DNA of 64,000 bases from Sulfolobus sp. A20 (GTDB lineage: Archaea; Thermoproteota; Thermoprotei_A; Sulfolobales; Sulfolobaceae). Shown here piece after piece: positions 9,579 to 51,310 of the stretch. How positions within the stretch are numbered: the first letter of the stretch is position 1; each line of letters begins with the position of its first letter. Position numbers and translations under genes: made by a program. Below the pieces are notes generated by a model. The model searched no databases. It saw only the letters and a program-made list of their open reading frames with translations, and had not been told where the DNA came from. The DNA lies in contig NZ_CP017006.1 in assembly GCF_001719125.1 (NCBI RefSeq), positions 2,308,384 to 2,372,383 on the forward strand, given 5' to 3'.

Positions 9579-9797
9579 GTGTGTAGACAACGATTTCATC
9601 CACATATTCCAACTTATGCCAATATATTTCGAGTATACTGTATTGAAGAATTTTTTAGCAATCTCGTCATTGGTTGAGTTAGGTGAGTGTTAGGAAATCA
9701 AACCCATTCTCGCCCCAATATATGAGTTACCTCACACAAAACACTTTTCCATCTAAAGAAAATTCAATTTATATCAACCAAATTGTTGTCCATACAC
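9579..9797. mobile_element. MITE-like derivative of the IS6-type element
   Basis: A 219-base element with ends gtgtgtagacaac and gttgtccatacac, imperfect inverted repeats. The outer parts correspond to the two ends of the IS6-type element at 26279-27079, with the transposase-coding middle deleted. Other copies are at 12093, 17567, 49219 and 51012. Confidence 0.65.
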
Positions 9798-10156
9798 TCT
9801 TCTAACGGAGTAACTCCTATAACGCTTTAGACATAGGAGGAGGGGAACAGTTGTCAGTATTAGCTCTGCGTGGAAGGAGGAGGACAGACCTCAACCTGTA
9901 TAGTGGGGAAAAGACAAGACGAGAGAATGCTCCATCATCTTTAGAAAACCTTTTTACCTTAGAAACGATATAAAAATTAGGGAGTGGCGGGTCAGCCTGG
10001 TTTGGGCTCTTCATAGGTCTGCTCGCACGGTATTCATCATTCCCTGCCACTCCCAATTCCTCTTCTGCAAGCGTATATTTAAAAACTTTTCTTTTTCGCT
10101 CTATTATCTTTAATAACGCATCAGTAATAATATTATAAGTTAGGAGAGACTTGAGT
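9798..10156. other. Non-coding relic stretch with a long inverted repeat
   Basis: The first 50 bases (ggagtaactcctataacgct and gacataggagga) resemble the right-end relic at 15430-15495. Bases 9980-9991 (gggagtggcggg) pair with 10042-10054 (ccctgccactccc) over 12-13 positions, closing a loop of about 50 bases. A TATA-like gatataaaaa precedes the stem. I considered a tRNA and rejected it because there is no T-arm. One plus-strand frame (SAWFGLFIGLLARYSSF) looks faintly coding. No complete gene is present. Confidence 0.35.
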
Positions 10157-11091: not shown

Positions 11092-11137
11092 GACCTCCTC
11101 CTTGCCTTAAAGGGCGAGGCTTTTTCCATTTTATAAG

Positions 11138-12091
11138 ACTTATACCCATCTTGATTATTATGAAATTAGACTTGTTAGATACTTCTAAAACTATTCAACT
11201 GATGAGAGAGTAGTGAAAGGATAAGGTTTTTTATTCTACTACAATTGAGGTGATTATTGTAACTCCTTCTTTTTCTAACTCCTCCTTAATCTTCTTTTCA
11301 ACGTAGTTTGCTATTAAAAATAGCTTCACTGGCTTGTTGAAGAGTTGTGGTATCAACTTTTTTCTAATGAGTATTTGCTCTAAAGCACCCTCATCGGCAA
11401 AGTTCTTAACCTCAAAGACGTAAACGTAATCATCAGTCTCATAAAAATCAACCTCAAATATCCTACCCTTATCTATAATGCCAAGAGTATCAACAATACT
11501 ACCGTGTTTAACATTATTTGGGTTTATCCCATGCAACTCCAAAGCCTCCTTATAAACCATCATAATAGTCCTCTCCAAACCCCTACCAGCCCTACTAGTA
11601 AAACTACCAATCTCAGTAGCAAGCTTACTCAAAAGCTTAGAATTCTCCCTAATAGCCTCTTCATGTTCTTTCAAAATTTCACCCTGTTGTTTAATAGCCT
11701 CTTGTAGACCTTTAATTGCCTCTCCTTGTTGTTTTATAGCTTCTTGTAAGCTTTTGATTGCTTCCCCATGTTCTTTTAAAATTTCTCCTTGTTGTTTTAC
11801 AGTCTCTTGTAAACTTTTGATCGCCTCTTGTAAGCTTTTGATCGCCTCTCCATGCTCCTTCAAAATTTCTCCTTGTTTCTTAACAGTCTCTTCTAGGCTT
11901 TTTATGGCACTGCTGTTCTCTTCTAATTTCTTTATTACTACTTCGTCTTTTAGCTTGTCGTAAATTTTGTTTGCTAATGCTGATATGAATTTAGGATCAT
12001 TTAACAGCTTTTCAATCATCTCGTCAGTCTCAATCGCCATACAGTTTTAATCTTTAAAGAAAGGGCTTAATATTTATTTCCTATCTGAAAC
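11138..12091. repeat. Duplicated cassette, copy 1 (pairs with 36920-37893)
   Basis: About 950 bases are shared with 36920-37893, including non-coding flanks: acttatacccatcttgatt at the low end and cttaatatttatttcct at the other. The unit contains one gene with its promoter. No terminal inverted repeats are visible. Confidence 0.6.
11231..12040 (-). CDS. Coiled-coil protein with C-terminal PD-(D/E)XK nuclease-like domain (DUF3782-like)
   Basis: A 269-residue protein from ATG 12040. Residues 1-45 are a conserved head (MAIETDEMIEKLLNDPKF). Next come about twelve perfect or near-perfect heptads of types EAIKSLQ, ETVKQQG and EILKEHG, a long coiled coil. The last 125 residues hold RIFEVDFYETDD and VYVFEVKNF, an Asp...Glu-x-Lys pattern of PD-(D/E)XK nucleases. 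A near-copy at 37012 has thirteen heptads. Such proteins are common in Sulfolobales; their function is unknown. A restriction-like or DNA-end role is inference. A TATA-like taatatttat lies about 28 bases upstream. Confidence 0.8.
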   Translation of the reverse strand: MAIETDEMIEKLLNDPKFISALANKIYDKLKDEVVIKKLEENSSAIKSLEETVKKQGEILKEHGEAIKSLQEAIKSLQETVKQQGEILKEHGEAIKSLQEAIKQQGEAIKGLQEAIKQQGEILKEHEEAIRENSKLLSKLATEIGSFTSRAGRGLERTIMMVYKEALELHGINPNNVKHGSIVDTLGIIDKGRIFEVDFYETDDYVYVFEVKNFADEGALEQILIRKKLIPQLFNKPVKLFLIANYVEKKIKEELEKEGVTIITSIVVE

Positions 12092-12092
12092 A

Positions 12093-12337
12093 GTGTGTGG
12101 ACAACAATTTCACCTATCCCCATAAAATTCAATTTTATTCCAACTTATGCCAATAGATTTTGAGTAAATTGTGTTGAAGAATATTTTTAGCCATCTCGTC
12201 ATTGTGTTTGTTGTTGAGTTAGGCGAGTTTTAGGAAATCAAACCTGTTCTCTTCCCAATAGATGAGTTGCCTCACACAAAACACTTTTCCATCTAAAGAA
12301 AATTCAATTTATATCAACCAAATTGTTGTCCACACAC
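12093..12337. mobile_element. MITE-like derivative of the IS6-type element
   Basis: A 245-base element with ends gtgtgtggacaac and gttgtccacacac, perfect inverted repeats. The internal sequence is the two outer parts of the 26279 element joined. It abuts the duplicated nuclease cassette. I see no obvious target duplication. Confidence 0.7.
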
Positions 12338-12681
12338 CCTCTTCCTATGACACTCCCTTCTTGTCAACTTAAAGATCATGAGGAGTGGAGCTTTCTCCCG
12401 CAATACCAGAAGGAGAACAGAGGGGGAATGAGGGAAATCTTCAAGCTGTAGCTCTGATTTCACTTTTTTTAACCCCTCTGCTCATAGATATGGAAAAAAG
12501 TACTTTGCTATCTACGCCATAAAGGGCTTGCCTCACTTTGTAAAAACTTAAGATAGTCATTTATGTCTACTAAACGGGGTGGGACACTAGACTGAATCCC
12601 TTTCCCCATGAGAGGCTTTCTTCATTTTTGCTCACGGTATATGCAGAATAATAGAGATGCATATGGGTATTAACGTCTCTT
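12338..12681. other. Non-coding stretch with TnpB left-end relics
   Basis: The part ggagctttctcccgcaatacc is the reverse complement of the block at 27560-27620 upstream of a TnpB start, and also resembles 53845-53900. Near 12510-12535, gccataaagggcttgcctca leads to ctttgtaa, a member of the short repeat family at 43118, 45889 and 57596. No gene is seen. Confidence 0.4.
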
Positions 12682-12932: not shown

Positions 12933-13418
12933 TCAGGGATCGTCTTCTTCAATCTCGTGCTGGGTAAACTGGCTATTTCCTTTATTGCCGTTAAAGGTTA
13001 TAATGATGTGTCTCTCAAGTTCAAAATCAAGCTCAAAGACTTCACGTTTTATTTCCGTTACATTATAGTGTTCTAGTGAACTCCTCAGTTTTTGGTACTT
13101 ATCTTCATTATCTATATCTCCTATGAACATTACGTTCTTCAAGCTTCTTTTTTCCACTTCCTCTTTCAGTCCTCTTATTGCGTTTTGCCAATTATCTATA
13201 CCTTTTATCTTAAGTTTTATGATGTTTATGGTCTTTTCACATTTAGTATAAACAATAGCGATTAGCGGCAATATTATCTTAATGTCCAGACTTCCGTCCA
13301 TAACAACTATTGTATGTTCCCCAGTTTCCTTCAAGCTAAGTTTGTGGCGTCTCAGCTCCTTAAATATTTGTAAAAATTGTGAGTAATCTGTTCCAAATAA
13401 AAACTTAACCTTAGCCAA
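12933..13418 (-). CDS. Unknown protein, possibly TOPRIM-like (DUF3226-like)
   Basis: A 161-residue protein that overlaps the ATPase gene by 8 bases, so translation is probably coupled. The layout FLFGTDYSQFLQIFKEL, then KNVMFIGDIDNEDKYQKL, resembles the acidic motifs of TOPRIM/DUF3226 proteins (E-G-x-D and D-x-D). The first catalytic glutamate is not visible, so the match is weak. The C-terminal third is polar and ends in EIEEDDP. Known two-gene defence systems such as PARIS and OLD/Gabija pair an AAA_15 ATPase with a TOPRIM or nuclease partner. A similar effector role is inferred. Confidence 0.55.
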   Translation of the reverse strand: MAKVKFLFGTDYSQFLQIFKELRRHKLSLKETGEHTIVVMDGSLDIKIILPLIAIVYTKCEKTINIIKLKIKGIDNWQNAIRGLKEEVEKRSLKNVMFIGDIDNEDKYQKLRSSLEHYNVTEIKREVFELDFELERHIIITFNGNKGNSQFTQHEIEEDDP

Positions 13419-15162
13419 CTGTCTCTCCTCTGACGATCACTCTTGGGTCTAAGCCCAACTCCAAGTATTTTGAAAGGTCTTCTATTTCTCTTATGATGAG
13501 TTTACCACCACTTTTTATGTCGACTGCCAGACACCTTGCACCCAAAGTTTCCACAATGTCCTCAGCCACATCTAGGTTATGCGTAGTGACCACAATCTGC
13601 CCGGGTATATCATCAAACCAAGCTATTATCCTTCCCAACAGCTTTGGATTCAGATGGCTCTCTATATCGTCCCATAGTATTAGCCCAGGCTTCAAGAACT
13701 CATAGAGTAGCCTTACTGTCAAGAATATCTGCAGTCCTTCTCCTAGGTCAAAGAGCCTCACTCTCTTACCGTCCGATCTCATCAAATAGAAGGTGTTTTG
13801 TCCTCCAAAGGGCTCAAAAGTTATTGTTGGTATGTACTCCTCGTTGTTCACTTCATTAATGTCTGAGATCACTTCCTTTATTACGTCTGTCATGTTCGAT
13901 ATTGTCTCCCAGTTATTTTCAATGTATGAGATATACTTTCTTAGTAACAACGAATTTATGAATAGTGATCTCTGCTCGCCTTTCGTGACCTCCTTATCTC
14001 CTTCTAAAACCCTTTTAATTATGTTGTTATCATACGTTATCTTAACTACCCTTTTTCCTCCCTCTATCTCTACTGGAAGTTGAGTGTTATAAAAGTGGAA
14101 AAGGAACCTACTCTTTTGCGCGTTATTTTCAATACCGTGAAGATAAGCTAGGAGCTCGATGGAGTCGTTAAACCCTGCTGGTTTTTGCTCTGCAGAGGCT
14201 AACAAGTAAAGGGCTTCGAGAAGGCTAGTCTTCCCTGCATTATTAGCTCCTATGATGACGTTAACTTTCCCTAAATCTATGCTTCCCTCTGAAATTCCCT
14301 TGAAGTTTTTGATTCTGACTTTCTCAAACCCTACCTGTTGGACCTCCTTTACCCCTAAATATTTACCATCATATAAGATTAAGGAATTTATTCTTATTTT
14401 AGAGGTCAAAATACCGCTATTACCCACCACGTATATGTGACCAGGCTTACTGTTTGACGCAAGATAGATAGGAGGCAACTCAGCTCTATCAAGAGAGATA
14501 GTAAGTGAGCTGTAGTTTAAGACTATCTTTAAGGTATGTCTCCCTTTAACCTCATTGATATTAATAGGTAACAGCTCGCAGTTCCCATCAGGATTTACTA
14601 AAACGATACTATCTTTTATAGGACTATTAGGGGTTTGTAATTTTCGAGAGTATATAGGGTTAAAACCCACAGCGTAGCTACCCTTAGCGTAATATTTATC
14701 GCAACCACCTAAGAGTTGGCCGTTACAGTTAGCTTTAGAATCGGGCTCACTTTCCGCTAAAAAGCCTACTATTAGGTTATCCCCCTCTCCTTCATAGGTG
14801 TAATCAACTTCTAAGTAAAATGACGGTCCTATTTCCTTACGTGTGAACAAATAGGTTGCAGTATTAGTTTCCCCGTTAATTAGCGTTCCGTCAAAATCTT
14901 GTAACTCCTTTGCGTTCTTACAATCCTCATATTTTACTACTTTAAAGTCATGGACTAGAAAATCTTTATCATCAGGAAGAGTGTCAGGCTTATCTTTAAC
15001 AAAATAAATATATGTTATGCCTTTATCGACATTTACGTAAACCTTTCCATTGTGTGCGAAAGCCCCAACTAAATTATAGTGGTCATCATATACTTTATAA
15101 CCTTTAGCATCAAAATTAATTATTGCTAGTCCCTCGCCCTCTACTTTAGCCCTATATATCAT
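13411..15162 (-). CDS. AAA_15-type ATPase with N-terminal lectin-like domain
   Basis: The frame opens at 15186; I prefer ATG 15162, which fits a TATA-like box at 15194-15204. Residues about 1-270 look like a beta-sandwich of the concanavalin/LamG type (SFYLEVDYTYEGEGDN, NLIVGFLAES, GSYAVGFNPI, GRHTLKIVLNYSSLTISLD). The ATPase half has RIKNFKGISEG, Walker A GANNAGKTS, a signature-like LGEGLQIFL, Walker B LILWDD followed by IESHLNP, and an H-loop VVTTHNLD. The Walker B second acidic residue is Asp, not Glu. A lectin-like domain fused to an OLD/RecF-like ATPase is unusual. It overlaps the next gene, its probable effector. Confidence 0.75.
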   Translation of the reverse strand: MIYRAKVEGEGLAIINFDAKGYKVYDDHYNLVGAFAHNGKVYVNVDKGITYIYFVKDKPDTLPDDKDFLVHDFKVVKYEDCKNAKELQDFDGTLINGETNTATYLFTRKEIGPSFYLEVDYTYEGEGDNLIVGFLAESEPDSKANCNGQLLGGCDKYYAKGSYAVGFNPIYSRKLQTPNSPIKDSIVLVNPDGNCELLPININEVKGRHTLKIVLNYSSLTISLDRAELPPIYLASNSKPGHIYVVGNSGILTSKIRINSLILYDGKYLGVKEVQQVGFEKVRIKNFKGISEGSIDLGKVNVIIGANNAGKTSLLEALYLLASAEQKPAGFNDSIELLAYLHGIENNAQKSRFLFHFYNTQLPVEIEGGKRVVKITYDNNIIKRVLEGDKEVTKGEQRSLFINSLLLRKYISYIENNWETISNMTDVIKEVISDINEVNNEEYIPTITFEPFGGQNTFYLMRSDGKRVRLFDLGEGLQIFLTVRLLYEFLKPGLILWDDIESHLNPKLLGRIIAWFDDIPGQIVVTTHNLDVAEDIVETLGARCLAVDIKSGGKLIIREIEDLSKYLELGLDPRVIVRGETVG

Positions 15163-15193
15163 AATAATAAATATGTGGTAAATCATAATAATC

Positions 15194-15204: not shown

Positions 15205-15320
15205 TATCCAGAGAGGAACGTTAAACCTCGCCTTTTAGGGCTGAGTCACTTCAAAGCTTTGTGCTTTTCATAACTTTAAGATTGAGAGGAAGCCTGGGTT
15301 GTTATTAACTGTCCTTTAAG

Positions 15321-15495
15321 TCACAAGCTTCACAGTGATGTTAACGTAGCTTTAAACATAATAAAAAATAAAGAGGATTGTAAGCGTATTAAAGAAGCCC
15401 CTTTCCTTTCTAGTTTCTTCAAATGGAGTAACTCCCTTAAAGGGGAGTAACGCTTTAGACCTCGGTAGAACCCTTTAGGGCGGGGAGGAGGTCAG
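15321..15495 (+). mobile_element. TnpB C-terminal relic with right end
   Basis: The frame reads KLHSDVNVALNIIKNKEDCK, the final helix region of TnpB, and ends at TAA near 15451. The right end follows and terminates ccctttagggcggggagga plus ggtcag. The rest of 15187-15651 holds a damaged short repeat (cctcgccttttagggctga) and otherwise nothing recognisable. Confidence 0.55.
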
Positions 15496-15651
15496 TGAAA
15501 TGCGTTGAACTACAATTTTTTAGAACCAAGAGGTAAACGTACTTGGCAAGCTCTTCAACGCAAGATGCTAGGTGAATGAACTTATATCTATTTTCATATG
15601 ATTCTAGCCTATCAAATATTTCTAAATGTGTTTCAGTGACCTTGCGTATCC

Positions 15652-17566: not shown

Positions 17567-17818
17567 GTGTGTGGACAACAATTTCACCCATCCCCATAAA
17601 ATTCAATTTTATTCTCACTTATGCCAATAGATTTCGAGTAAATTGTATTGAAGAATATTTTTAGCCATCTCGTTATTGTGTTTCTTGTTGAGTTAGGTGA
17701 GTGTTAGGAAATCAAACCCATTCATCTTCTCGCCCCAATAGATGAGTTGCCTCACACAAAACACTTTTCCACAATAAAGAAAATTCAATTTATATCAACC
17801 AAATTGTTATCCACACAC
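17567..17818. mobile_element. MITE-like derivative of the IS6-type element
   Basis: A 252-base element with ends gtgtgtggacaac and gttatccacacac. It is closely similar to the 12093 copy. It is separated from the 17858 element by only 39 bases, which read as vapC sequence on the minus strand. Confidence 0.7.
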
Positions 17819-26278: not shown

Positions 26279-27079
26279 GTGTGTGGACAACAATTTGGTT
26301 GTTTTGATATAAATTGAATTTTCTTTATTGTGGAAAAGTGTTTTTAGGGTGAGGGCGAGTTATTTATGGGGGTGAGAATATCAATAGGTTTGATTTCCTC
26401 GCCCTCACCCAAATTATCTCTACCCTTTTAAAGTATATAAGTGTTAAGCCTAGGTTTCATTCCTTGGATGATATTGCATTAGCCTTAACCTCTTACTTGC
26501 TAGGCTTGTCAAGTTGGAGGACTTTATTACCTCACACTACCTTGCTCTACTATTTTCACAAGTTGGCTAATGTTAATTATGAGGTTAAGGTTGATGTTAA
26601 GCGTGGGGATTATTTGCTCGTTGATGAGACTAAGGTTTTGAGGGTTAATGGTGAGTATTACTACTTATGGGTTGTTAGGCATTACGAGTCTGGGCTTGTT
26701 GTGTTCTTCATGTTGACTAGTCTTAGGAGTGGTTTCCACGTTTATGTGATATTAAATGGTATTAAGCTTGAGAATTGGAGGATAAGGTTATCTTCCTACA
26801 CGATAAGGCATCAGTCTACAAGGCATTCTCTTGGTTCAATGCAAAACACGAGGTTGAAACTTTTGGCAAGAGAAGCTTAGTAGAACTAGTTTTTAGGAGC
26901 TTAAAACATAGGCTAGCAAGCATGGACTCACACTTCACATGGAACTCAACAAGGAACACAATAACGAGATGGCTAAAAATATTCTTCCTAATCTACAACA
27001 CAATTTACTCGAAATCTATTAGCATAAGTTGGAATAAAATTGAATTTTATGGGGGTGGATGAAATTGTTGTCCACACAC
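26279..27079 (+). mobile_element. IS6-type insertion sequence (ISC735/ISC774-like)
   Basis: An 801-base element with perfect 13-base ends gtgtgtggacaac and gttgtccacacac. It carries one transposase gene in two phases. This is the longest, best-preserved copy here and the parent type of the MITEs at 9579, 12093, 17567, 49219 and 51012. Assignment to the IS6 family rests on the transposase motifs. No target duplication is apparent, perhaps because the right end was later duplicated. Confidence 0.7.
26464..27062 (+). pseudogene. IS6-type DDE transposase, one-base frameshift
   Basis: The first phase reads SLDDIALALTSYLLGLSS-like sequence and YLLVDETKVLRVNGEYYYLW with the first catalytic Asp. The second phase, from about 26775, reads VIFLHDKASVYKAFSWF with the second Asp and SLVELVFRSLKHRLASM with the catalytic Glu. 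The phase changes at tggaggataagg. The fossil copy at 29490 has tggagggataagg, which would restore ENWRDKV. So one G was lost here. Intact length would be about 200 residues. Confidence 0.75.
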
Positions 27080-27276
27080 AGAAGCTTAGTAGAACTAGTT
27101 TTTAGGAGCTTAAAACATAGGCTAGCAAGCATTGACTTCACATGGAACTCAACAAGAAACACAATAACTAGATGGCTAAAAATATTCTTCCTAATCTACA
27201 ACACAATTTACTCGAAATCTATTAGCATAAGTTGTAATAAAATTTTATGGGGTGGATGAAATTGTTGTCCACACAC
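27080..27276 (+). repeat. Tandem duplicate of the IS right end
   Basis: 197 bases repeat the last 209 bases of the element (26871-27079), from agaagcttagtagaactag to gttgtccacacac, with two small deletions. The parent and duplicate lie back to back. Confidence 0.7.
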
Positions 27277-27289
27277 CGAATTGCGGTAG

Positions 27290-36919: not shown

Positions 36920-37893
36920 ACTTATACCCATCTTGATTATTATGAAATTAGATTTGTTAGATACTTCTAAAACTATTCAACTGATGAGAGAGTAGTGAAA
37001 GGAAAGGTTTTTTATTCTACGACAATTGAGGTAATTATTGTAACTCCTTCTTTCTCCAACTCCTCCTTAATCTTCCTTTCAACGTAGTTTGCTATTAAGA
37101 ACAGTTTTACTGGCTTGTTGAAGAGTTGTGGGACTAACTTCTTTCTAATAAGTATTTGCTCTAAAGCACCCTCATCAGCAAAGTTCTTAACTTCAAAGAC
37201 ATAAACGTAATCATCAGTCTCATAAAAATCAACCTCAAATATCCTACCCTTATCTATAACGCCAAGAGTATCAACAATACTACCGTGCTTAACATTATTT
37301 GGATTTATCCCATGCAACTCCAAAGCCTCCTTATAAACCATCATAATAGTCCTCTCCAAACCCTTACCAGCCCTACTAGTAAAACTACCAATCTCAGTAG
37401 CAAGCTTACTCATAAGCTTAGAATTCTCCCTAATAGCCTCTCCCTGCTCCTTTACAGCTTCTTGTAGACTTTTGATCGCTTCCCCCTGCTGTTTTACTGC
37501 TTCTTGTAGGCTTTTAATAGCCTCCCCATGTTCTTTTAAAATTTCACCTTGTTGTTTAATAGCATCTTGTAGGCTTTTAATAGCTTCCCCGTGTTCTTTT
37601 AAAATTTCTCCTTGTTTCTTAACAGTTTCTTGTAAGCTTTTGATCGCCTCTCCTTGTTGTTTTACAGTCTCTTCTAGGCTTTTGATCGTTTCTTGTAGGC
37701 TTTTTATGGCGCTGCTGTTCTCTTCTAATTTCTTTATTACTACTTCGTCTTTTAGCTTGTCGTAAATTTTGTTTGCTAATGCTGATATGAATTTAGGATC
37801 ATTTAACAGCTTTTCAATCATCTCGTCAGTCTCAATTGCCATACAGTTTTAATCTTTAAAGAAAGGGCTTAATATTTATTTCCTTTCCGAAAC
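36920..37893. repeat. Duplicated cassette, copy 2 (pairs with 11138-12091)
   Basis: The low end begins acttatacccatcttgatt and the high end finishes atttatttcctttccgaaac. It contains the second coiled-coil nuclease gene and its promoter. Confidence 0.6.
37012..37842 (-). CDS. Coiled-coil protein with C-terminal PD-(D/E)XK nuclease-like domain (DUF3782-like), paralogue
   Basis: 276 residues, nearly identical to the 11231 protein in the head and C-terminal domain. The coil has about thirteen heptads in a different order (ETIKSLE, EAVKQQG, DAIKQQG). The C-terminal domain keeps RIFEVDFYETDD and VYVFEVKNF. Differences concentrate in the heptad region, showing repeat-unit gain, loss or conversion. 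A TATA-like taatatttat precedes ATG 37842 by about 28 bases. Confidence 0.8.
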   Translation of the reverse strand: MAIETDEMIEKLLNDPKFISALANKIYDKLKDEVVIKKLEENSSAIKSLQETIKSLEETVKQQGEAIKSLQETVKKQGEILKEHGEAIKSLQDAIKQQGEILKEHGEAIKSLQEAVKQQGEAIKSLQEAVKEQGEAIRENSKLMSKLATEIGSFTSRAGKGLERTIMMVYKEALELHGINPNNVKHGSIVDTLGVIDKGRIFEVDFYETDDYVYVFEVKNFADEGALEQILIRKKLVPQLFNKPVKLFLIANYVERKIKEELEKEGVTIITSIVVE

Positions 37894-50796: not shown

Positions 50797-51011
50797 ATAG
50801 ATAAATTAGACTAATCCCTCCTATTTATTTTTGCTTCTACAGAATTATTTCTGACTTCCTCCCCACTTTAAATGGCGAGACTTTCTCGATTTCTCTATCC
50901 CAGTTCCCCTTGAACTGGATCTATAGGACAGTCTTCGAACTGTTCATCACTCTACAAGCACCGTGTCTACGTATGTCCAGGATTTCTCATACTGTTTTCT
51001 ATCCTGGTTAG
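50797..51011. other. Intergenic stretch with short repeat
   Basis: At 50853, gacttcctccccactttaaa and tggcgagactttctcg is a short TnpB-end repeat. The next 110 bases hold a ccccttgaactgg/ccagttcccc-type local palindrome and no frame. Confidence 0.35.
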
Positions 51012-51261
51012 GTGTGTGGACAACAATTTGATTGATGTAAATTGAATTTTATTTATTGTGGAAAAGTATTTTTAGGGTGAGGGTAAGTTATTTATTGTAG
51101 GAAGAAGATGAATGGGTTTGATTTCCTAACACTCACCTTACTTAACAAGAAACACAATGACGAGATGGTTAAAAAAATTCTTCAACACAATTTACTCGAA
51201 ATCTATTGGCATAAGTTGGAATAAAATTTTATGGGGGTGGATGAAATTGTTGTCCACACAC
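51012..51261. mobile_element. MITE-like derivative of the IS6-type element, inverted
   Basis: 250 bases with perfect ends gtgtgtggacaac and gttgtccacacac, in the opposite orientation to the 12093 and 17567 copies. It stops 50 bases before the aminotransferase start, so its end may lie within that gene's promoter region. Confidence 0.7.
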
Positions 51262-51310
51262 CATTTCACGAGATGAAAGGAAATAAATACTGGTTGTCAA
51301 TCTCTACTAT

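Follow-up and report, generated by a model that had tools for sequence, protein, structure and literature searches.

Sulfolobus sp. A20 carries two copies of a gene for a coiled-coil protein with a predicted nuclease domain, and these copies differ by whole heptads, in phase; in the family to which they belong, coil length varies widely and its seven-residue phase is almost constant. We think it fairly probable that such genes encode an endonuclease with a heptad rod, that their 21-bp units recombine in phase and that selection filters the products for register and for the a/d core. The novel part is the change of stalk length in whole heptads, as the combination of a coiled coil with the PD-(D/E)XK type was already published in 2007 and 2016; our literature search, which lay mostly outside subscription journals, found no published report of heptad-number variation in this family.

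Two gene copies with rearranged coils

Copies A and B lie in a window of 64,000 nucleotides, the whole stretch of DNA analysed here (Table 1). A preliminary description had reported two cassettes of about 950 bases with promoter, gene and flank in common, and DNA alignment bore this out, with 86% identity over 996 columns and shared sequence on both sides of the gene. The A/T-rich element upstream of the start codon is presumably an archaeal TATA/BRE; Rfam gave no match within the 64-kb window. A search of the 2,688,317-base genome returned A and B as full-length copies and no third, the remaining matches being fragments of B, a 135-aa paralogue without a coil (L004) and a more remote relative that has one (L005).

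Table 1. Features of the two gene copies and their surroundings, in window coordinates.
Feature	Position	Strand	Remarks
Duplicated segment, copy A	11138..12091	-	54 nt upstream region, gene and ~95 nt 3′ flank; upstream region and 3′ flank common to A and B
Copy A gene	11231..12040	-	ORF, 269 aa: head, coiled coil and PD-(D/E)XK domain (predicted)
Copy A head, residues 1-43	11912..12040	-	1/129 nt unlike copy B
Copy A coil, 12 heptads	11660..11911	-	d-layer string L Q H L L Q H L Q L Q H
Copy A predicted PD-(D/E)XK domain, SFTSRAG to C-terminus	11234..11605	-	tail model pLDDT 75.3, residues 132-269
E210-V-K212, E-x-K motif	11405..11413	-	D198 at 11447-11449
A/T-rich promoter-like element	12064..12081	-	~25 nt 5′ of start codon; common to copy B, close in L010
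MITE, 18-bp perfect terminal inverted repeats	12092..12338	.	inverted repeat 12093-12110 / 12320-12337; repeats D6, D7
Hairpin beside copy A 3′ border	11100..11119	+	terminator/hairpin scan
Duplicated segment, copy B	36920..37893	-	match to 11138..12091
Copy B gene	37012..37842	-	ORF, 276 aa
Copy B coil, 13 heptads	37441..37713	-	d-layer string L L Q L Q H L Q H L Q L Q

Both ends of the gene had been called almost identical. This holds in that differences are few, but the two ends are not equally close: the head differs at 0.8% of nucleotides and the C-terminal part at 5.2% (22 of 420 nt; 16 codons changed silently, 5 with replacement). Fisher's test of this contrast gives p 0.02, or 0.045 once the 54 upstream nt are counted in. 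The pN/pS of the tail between A and B is 0.08, which indicates that both copies are constrained.

Counted from the residue after EENS to the common EAIRENS, the coil has the twelve and thirteen heptads, in changed order, that had first been noticed. Three heptad types can be told apart by position d: KSLQ-like with Leu, KQQG-like with Gln and KEHG-like with His. Heptad A4 equals B4, A6 equals B3 and A7 equals B9, and A2 is 20/21 like B5; periods in the repeat arrays are 21, 42, 63 and 84 bp. The differences between the copies are thus whole-heptad, in-phase and non-collinear rather than random point changes, and the same pattern is found family-wide. A full-length model (pTM 0.40) renders residues 1-131 as helices, H2-13 being followed by one long helix from residue 16.

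The coil also accounts for the full-length match lists from Pfam, NCBIfam and PADLOC; with the tail alone, PADLOC returned no match and Pfam and NCBIfam nothing convincing. PF01519/DUF16 scored 46.4 bits with B and 30.4 with A (curated cut-off 40), in a match that lies within the heptads and resembles coiled-coil cross-matching. Matches to spike proteins in a sequence search of the PDB were set aside as coiled-coil cross-matches.

Coil length and register across the family

A query with the full protein matched 29 of 31 Sulfolobaceae genomes, some of the matches being coil-only cross-matches, and a profile of the tail matched 38 of 250 genomes of the phylum at 1e-6. Each species was represented by one genome, so that comparisons lie between species or between paralogues. 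Matching open frames were reduced to a set of 44 members by removal of the duplicates L003, L034 and L035, the truncated frames L040, L046 and L051, the second piece of L055 and the coil-less L004 and L031. In-frame stops or lost heads leave L046, L051, L055 and L040 broken or truncated, which is a sign of ongoing gene loss.

Measured from fixed point to fixed point, the distance from head to tail ranges from 60 to 267 residues in the 44 members. It equals 4 modulo 7 in 39 of them—a count over related members, which are not independent—and takes 20 distinct values among those 39; the five off-phase members fall into three lineages (L024; L042 and L049; L054 and L055). In the 22 closest pairs, with tails 88-100% identical in nucleotides, every coil difference is a number of whole heptads, from 0 to 15, off-phase lineages included, and the only pair with a difference of zero consists of two identical genes. 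Mosaic rebuilding with free jumps gave 51 of 52 segments an offset divisible by 21 nt in nine of ten comparisons, nine of the segments being trivial first ones; the tenth, L049 versus L042, departs from a simple 21-nt mosaic.

At the syntenic loci L011 and L018, the difference is a single 63-nt gap, a block of three heptads. L023 and L039, which come from one genome, have no mismatch over the last 454 nt and differ by 3.5% in the head; their stalks are two heptads apart and differ in order, with several in-phase jumps and ~8% mismatch left after the best in-phase patching. For this pair slippage alone is insufficient, which leaves two routes: homogenisation of the tails by conversion, or rebuilding of the coils from further paralogues.

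Heptads of the same type, compared within or between copies, have a pS of ~0.7, near saturation, with a pN of 0.09-0.10 and a pN/pS of 0.12-0.15, against a pN/pS of 0.58 between types; so low a ratio at near-saturated pS indicates that the heptads are old, type-preserving and moving. Core position a is occupied by I, V or L in 93% of 700 heptads; at position d, L accounts for 49%, H for 23% and Q for 15%. Leucine and polar d layers alternate in 480 of 644 steps where 316 would be expected, an excess inflated by block duplication. Polar d layers recall parallel trimers. Selection on coil length or specificity had been suggested at the outset: phase and pN/pS favour selection on heptad type and register, but no evidence was found of selection for a particular length or order; lineages differ in number. 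A 21-bp repeat by itself biases indels to multiples of 21, so that the signal for register is partly confounded with mutation bias.

On the reading that we favour, the products of A and B would be intracellular, probably homotrimeric endonucleases, each chain starting with a short helical head and ending in a domain like that of NucS/EndoMS, with an unbroken heptad rod in between, the rod being composed of the three heptad types with Leu, Gln or His at core position d. Recombination of the 21-bp units out of register would take place inside one gene as well as between paralogues, through slippage, unequal crossing-over or gene conversion, and turnover of heptad number and order would outpace change at the ends. 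Selection would discard products in which head and nuclease have lost their seven-residue phase or the a/d core is spoiled, and would tolerate many lengths. Slippage or gene conversion of heptads, as first proposed, agrees in kind with the in-phase, non-collinear rearrangements in A, B and the family.

A simpler account treats the coil as a 21-bp minisatellite with neutral gain and loss of units, the constant phase being a mere effect of the repeat unit and neither register nor composition being under selection. In its favour are the periods of the repeat arrays and a tail tree of 43 of the 44 members (L055 was omitted as broken), on which 35 length changes occur over the 43 rows, with a heptad number of its own in almost every lineage. 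We nevertheless judge pure repeat instability rather improbable, as replacement changes are few in same-type heptads that are nearly saturated at silent sites, the Leu/polar alternation exceeds expectation, even if duplication inflates it, and the coils of L020, L027 and L030 look poor in internal repeats yet keep the common phase.

Diversifying selection on coil specificity, under which heptad order would be a pairing code that separates paralogous chains or partners and shuffling would itself be favoured, appears unlikely. It would suit the non-collinear mosaics between same-genome paralogues with converted or identical ends (A/B; L023/L039) and the up to 17 matching stretches, some of them coil-only, in G015, the maximum for one genome; but replacement changes are rare within heptad types, and no conserved neighbour that might be an operon partner was found across 21 sources. 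A further idea, which we hold to be distinctly unlikely, is phase-locked shuffling, in which heads and tails are interchangeable through gene conversion and heptads are traded, the order of Leu, Gln and His being a changeable assembly code. If true, such a code would set chain pairing and the distance of the nuclease from the target of the head, with a logic comparable to that of variable-repeat recognition proteins, acting via a coiled coil.

Coiled-coil rods are usually constant in length, since the phase must stay right. In this family the end-to-end distance varies more than four-fold with little change of phase, and there are natural pairs whose ends are near-identical. These pairs are ready-made material for the effect of rod length, polar core layers and register on nuclease assembly and activity, and give a handle on a widespread gene family of the Sulfolobaceae.

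The C-terminal domain

The C-terminal domain had been called nuclease-like, and structure prediction upholds this: it is predicted to adopt a PD-(D/E)XK fold, to which that of NucS/EndoMS is the nearest. A model of the tail built from four aligned sequences (mean pLDDT 75, with values <50 at tail residues 1-26; pTM 0.68) has the elements H23-38 E47-52 E63-70 E75-84 H86-103 E107-117 H118-126 E130-137, in the order of the PD-(D/E)XK core. NucS/EndoMS gave the best Foldseek matches (8.9e-4, 2vld_B), and VIA-align scored 2vld_A at Z 10.7 (100 residues, 2.9 Å) and 5gke_A at Z 10.6 (106 residues, 3.3 Å), above the unrelated phosphoribosyltransferases (Z ~7). By sequence, a profile of 45 tails also placed 2vld and 5gke first, at E values of only 0.06 and 0.27, with E-x-K aligned and the E and K of copy A paired with E179 and K181 of 5gke.

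The Asp, Glu and Lys residues that had been singled out are conserved: K81 is invariant in the 45 tails, and D67 and E79 are kept in at least 90%, these positions being K212, D198 and E210 of copy A. Exceptions at the D and E positions include rows from coil-less proteins.

The coil-less 135-aa paralogue of the A20 genome (L004, G000:C1:1246992-1247396) and L110-L116 keep the family sequence and have lost the motif D and E. Eight copies were read, from the A20 genome, five further genomes of the genus and two of genus g9, and the paralogue was also matched in G012 and G005; judged by its residues, it is predicted to be an inactive nuclease kept across two genera. Because all eight copies lack the acidic residues of the motif, the fold can evidently be kept without catalysis, and the domain in A and B might by analogy be a non-catalytic, nucleic-acid-binding relic in a structural protein. 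We consider that very unlikely, given the retention of D, E and K across the tails, and take catalysis by A and B to be probable.

Another coiled-coil protein of the A20 genome (L005:1489-2175) has a similar head but ends in a C-terminal domain of another kind, which also shows a motif, EIDLF...GEVK, and is perhaps a second PD-(D/E)XK subfamily.

Surroundings of the genes and known relatives

On its 5′ side copy A stops at the edge of a MITE, and no similarity between A and B resumes past this border. The 5′ flank of copy B is similar to L010 for ~76 nt past the position of that border, and the 3′ flank of copy A looks, by eye, similar to L010 a few bases past the 3′ border, beside which lies a hairpin that we take to be IS200/IS605-end-like. 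Two further duplicate or cross-genus pairs, G014a/b and G029/G013, share ~77 nt before and 36 nt after the gene and ~45 nt before and 6 nt after it, respectively. The similarity thus ends ~95, 36 or 6 nt past the stop in the three pairs, and ends so unequal are not constant ends. No common terminal motif or target duplication was seen at the borders of the copies. No empty site is shown for copy B, the left flank of which has 70% identity in the genus, the right flank being essentially confined to the A20 genome; the genes flanking copy A are hardly common to other genomes.

On the tail tree, genus labels need 22 changes where the least possible is 9, and A and B cluster with genes from two further genera (bootstrap 100, SH-aLRT 97), from which it follows that paralogue sorting or transfer is frequent. 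The first suggestion, that the cassette may be mobile, draws support from this patchy cross-genus distribution; it loses support at the borders, one of which is the MITE edge and neither of which is an element end, and in the unequal ends of the three pairs. A mobile cassette with defined ends and a transposase acting in trans would suit the conflict between tree and genera, TnpB-like genes near 5 of 21 sources and the fact that the three duplicate or cross-genus pairs have little beyond promoter and gene in common, but is most improbable in view of ends that differ in every pair, the MITE edge of A, the extended flank similarity of B and the lack of any common terminal motif or target duplication among the borders seen.

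The MITE family with 18-bp terminal inverted repeats occurs in the window at 9595-9800, 12092-12338, 17567-17818, 26871-27280 and 51011-51289, with one pair in tandem at a 203-bp period. A second repeat of ~250 bp, at 15248-15498, has more than 12 diverged copies in the A20 genome, and further ones elsewhere in the genus. No relative of A or B was found in viral contigs, and a viral or phage origin was rejected: the matches from phage and plasmid records were all bacterial coiled-coil ones, with ~29-35% identity over the coil, and were discounted.

A census of neighbouring genes covered 121 of 134 ORFs, 13 short ones having been omitted by hand under no strict length rule; the control comprised 111 ORFs, all 98 aa or longer, taken from 20 regions in other parts of genomes from this set. 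For each, the 25 commonest families were listed, so that families met with a single time mostly do not show. A single recurrent cluster was found, near 5 of the 21 sources, which looks like TnpB and which we name TnpB-like by inference. PIN, PaREP1 (HEPN), nucleotidyltransferase, AAA_21, TnpB-type and Csx1-type genes occur near the family genes, with Csx1-like matches in 4 of the 121 ORFs, and are absent among the control families listed. A paper on HEPN proteins places PaREP1/8 genes in operons that also contain genes for nucleotidyltransferases and DUF1626 nucleases (PMC3710099). The neighbours suggest mobile and conflict-gene islands, in which the family may have its role.

Adjoining copy A, window positions 13411-15186 encode an OLD/AriA-like ATPase with a long N-terminal extension (AAA_21; PADLOC AriA 8.9e-26), overlapped by a gene of 161 aa without a Pfam match (12933-13418, minus strand); together they are a candidate two-gene defence system.

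Among solved structures, the C-terminal domain of NucS/EndoMS (2vld, 5gke) has the closest fold to the predicted one, with E-x-K in the same place, but A and B are without the N-terminal domain of NucS and have a coiled-coil rod instead. The stalks of trimeric autotransporter adhesins are long heptad rods too, and core position d in them holds polar residues; A and B have no recognisable signal peptide, membrane anchor or adhesin domain, and the C-terminus is a predicted nuclease instead.

Closer relatives are found among archaeal families. DUF1626/COG5493 was placed in the PD-(D/E)XK superfamily in 2007, and an N-terminal coiled coil was noted; as the part of that paper on this family describes it, DUF1626 (PF07788/COG5493) is crenarchaeal, Sulfolobus included, and has the same order of strands and helices as the A/B family, but often a threonine where A and B keep the lysine of motif III (PMC1913061). 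The tail of copy A has no match to PF07788 at E 0.01; weak matches came from 9 of the 45 tails, the best at 2.2e-4. The stalks of DUF3782 were discussed in 2016 with trimeric structures of relatives, and the prokaryotic PD-(D/E)XK endonucleases treated in that paper have an N-terminal coiled-coil stalk ahead of the same kind of nuclease (PMC4786415). Copies A and B score 20.9 and 19.7 bits with PF12644/DUF3782, both below the Pfam cut-off of 24.4; the nonad beta-layer motif of the crenarchaeal DUF3782 stalks, [aliphatic]-A-T-[KR]-x-[DE], occurs in none of the 44 members, and the heptad core of the A/B family, unlike that of DUF3782, alternates Leu with His or Gln. With DUF3782 scores below cut-off, no match of the tail to PF07788 and no nonad motif, we file A and B as a branch next to DUF1626 and DUF3782.
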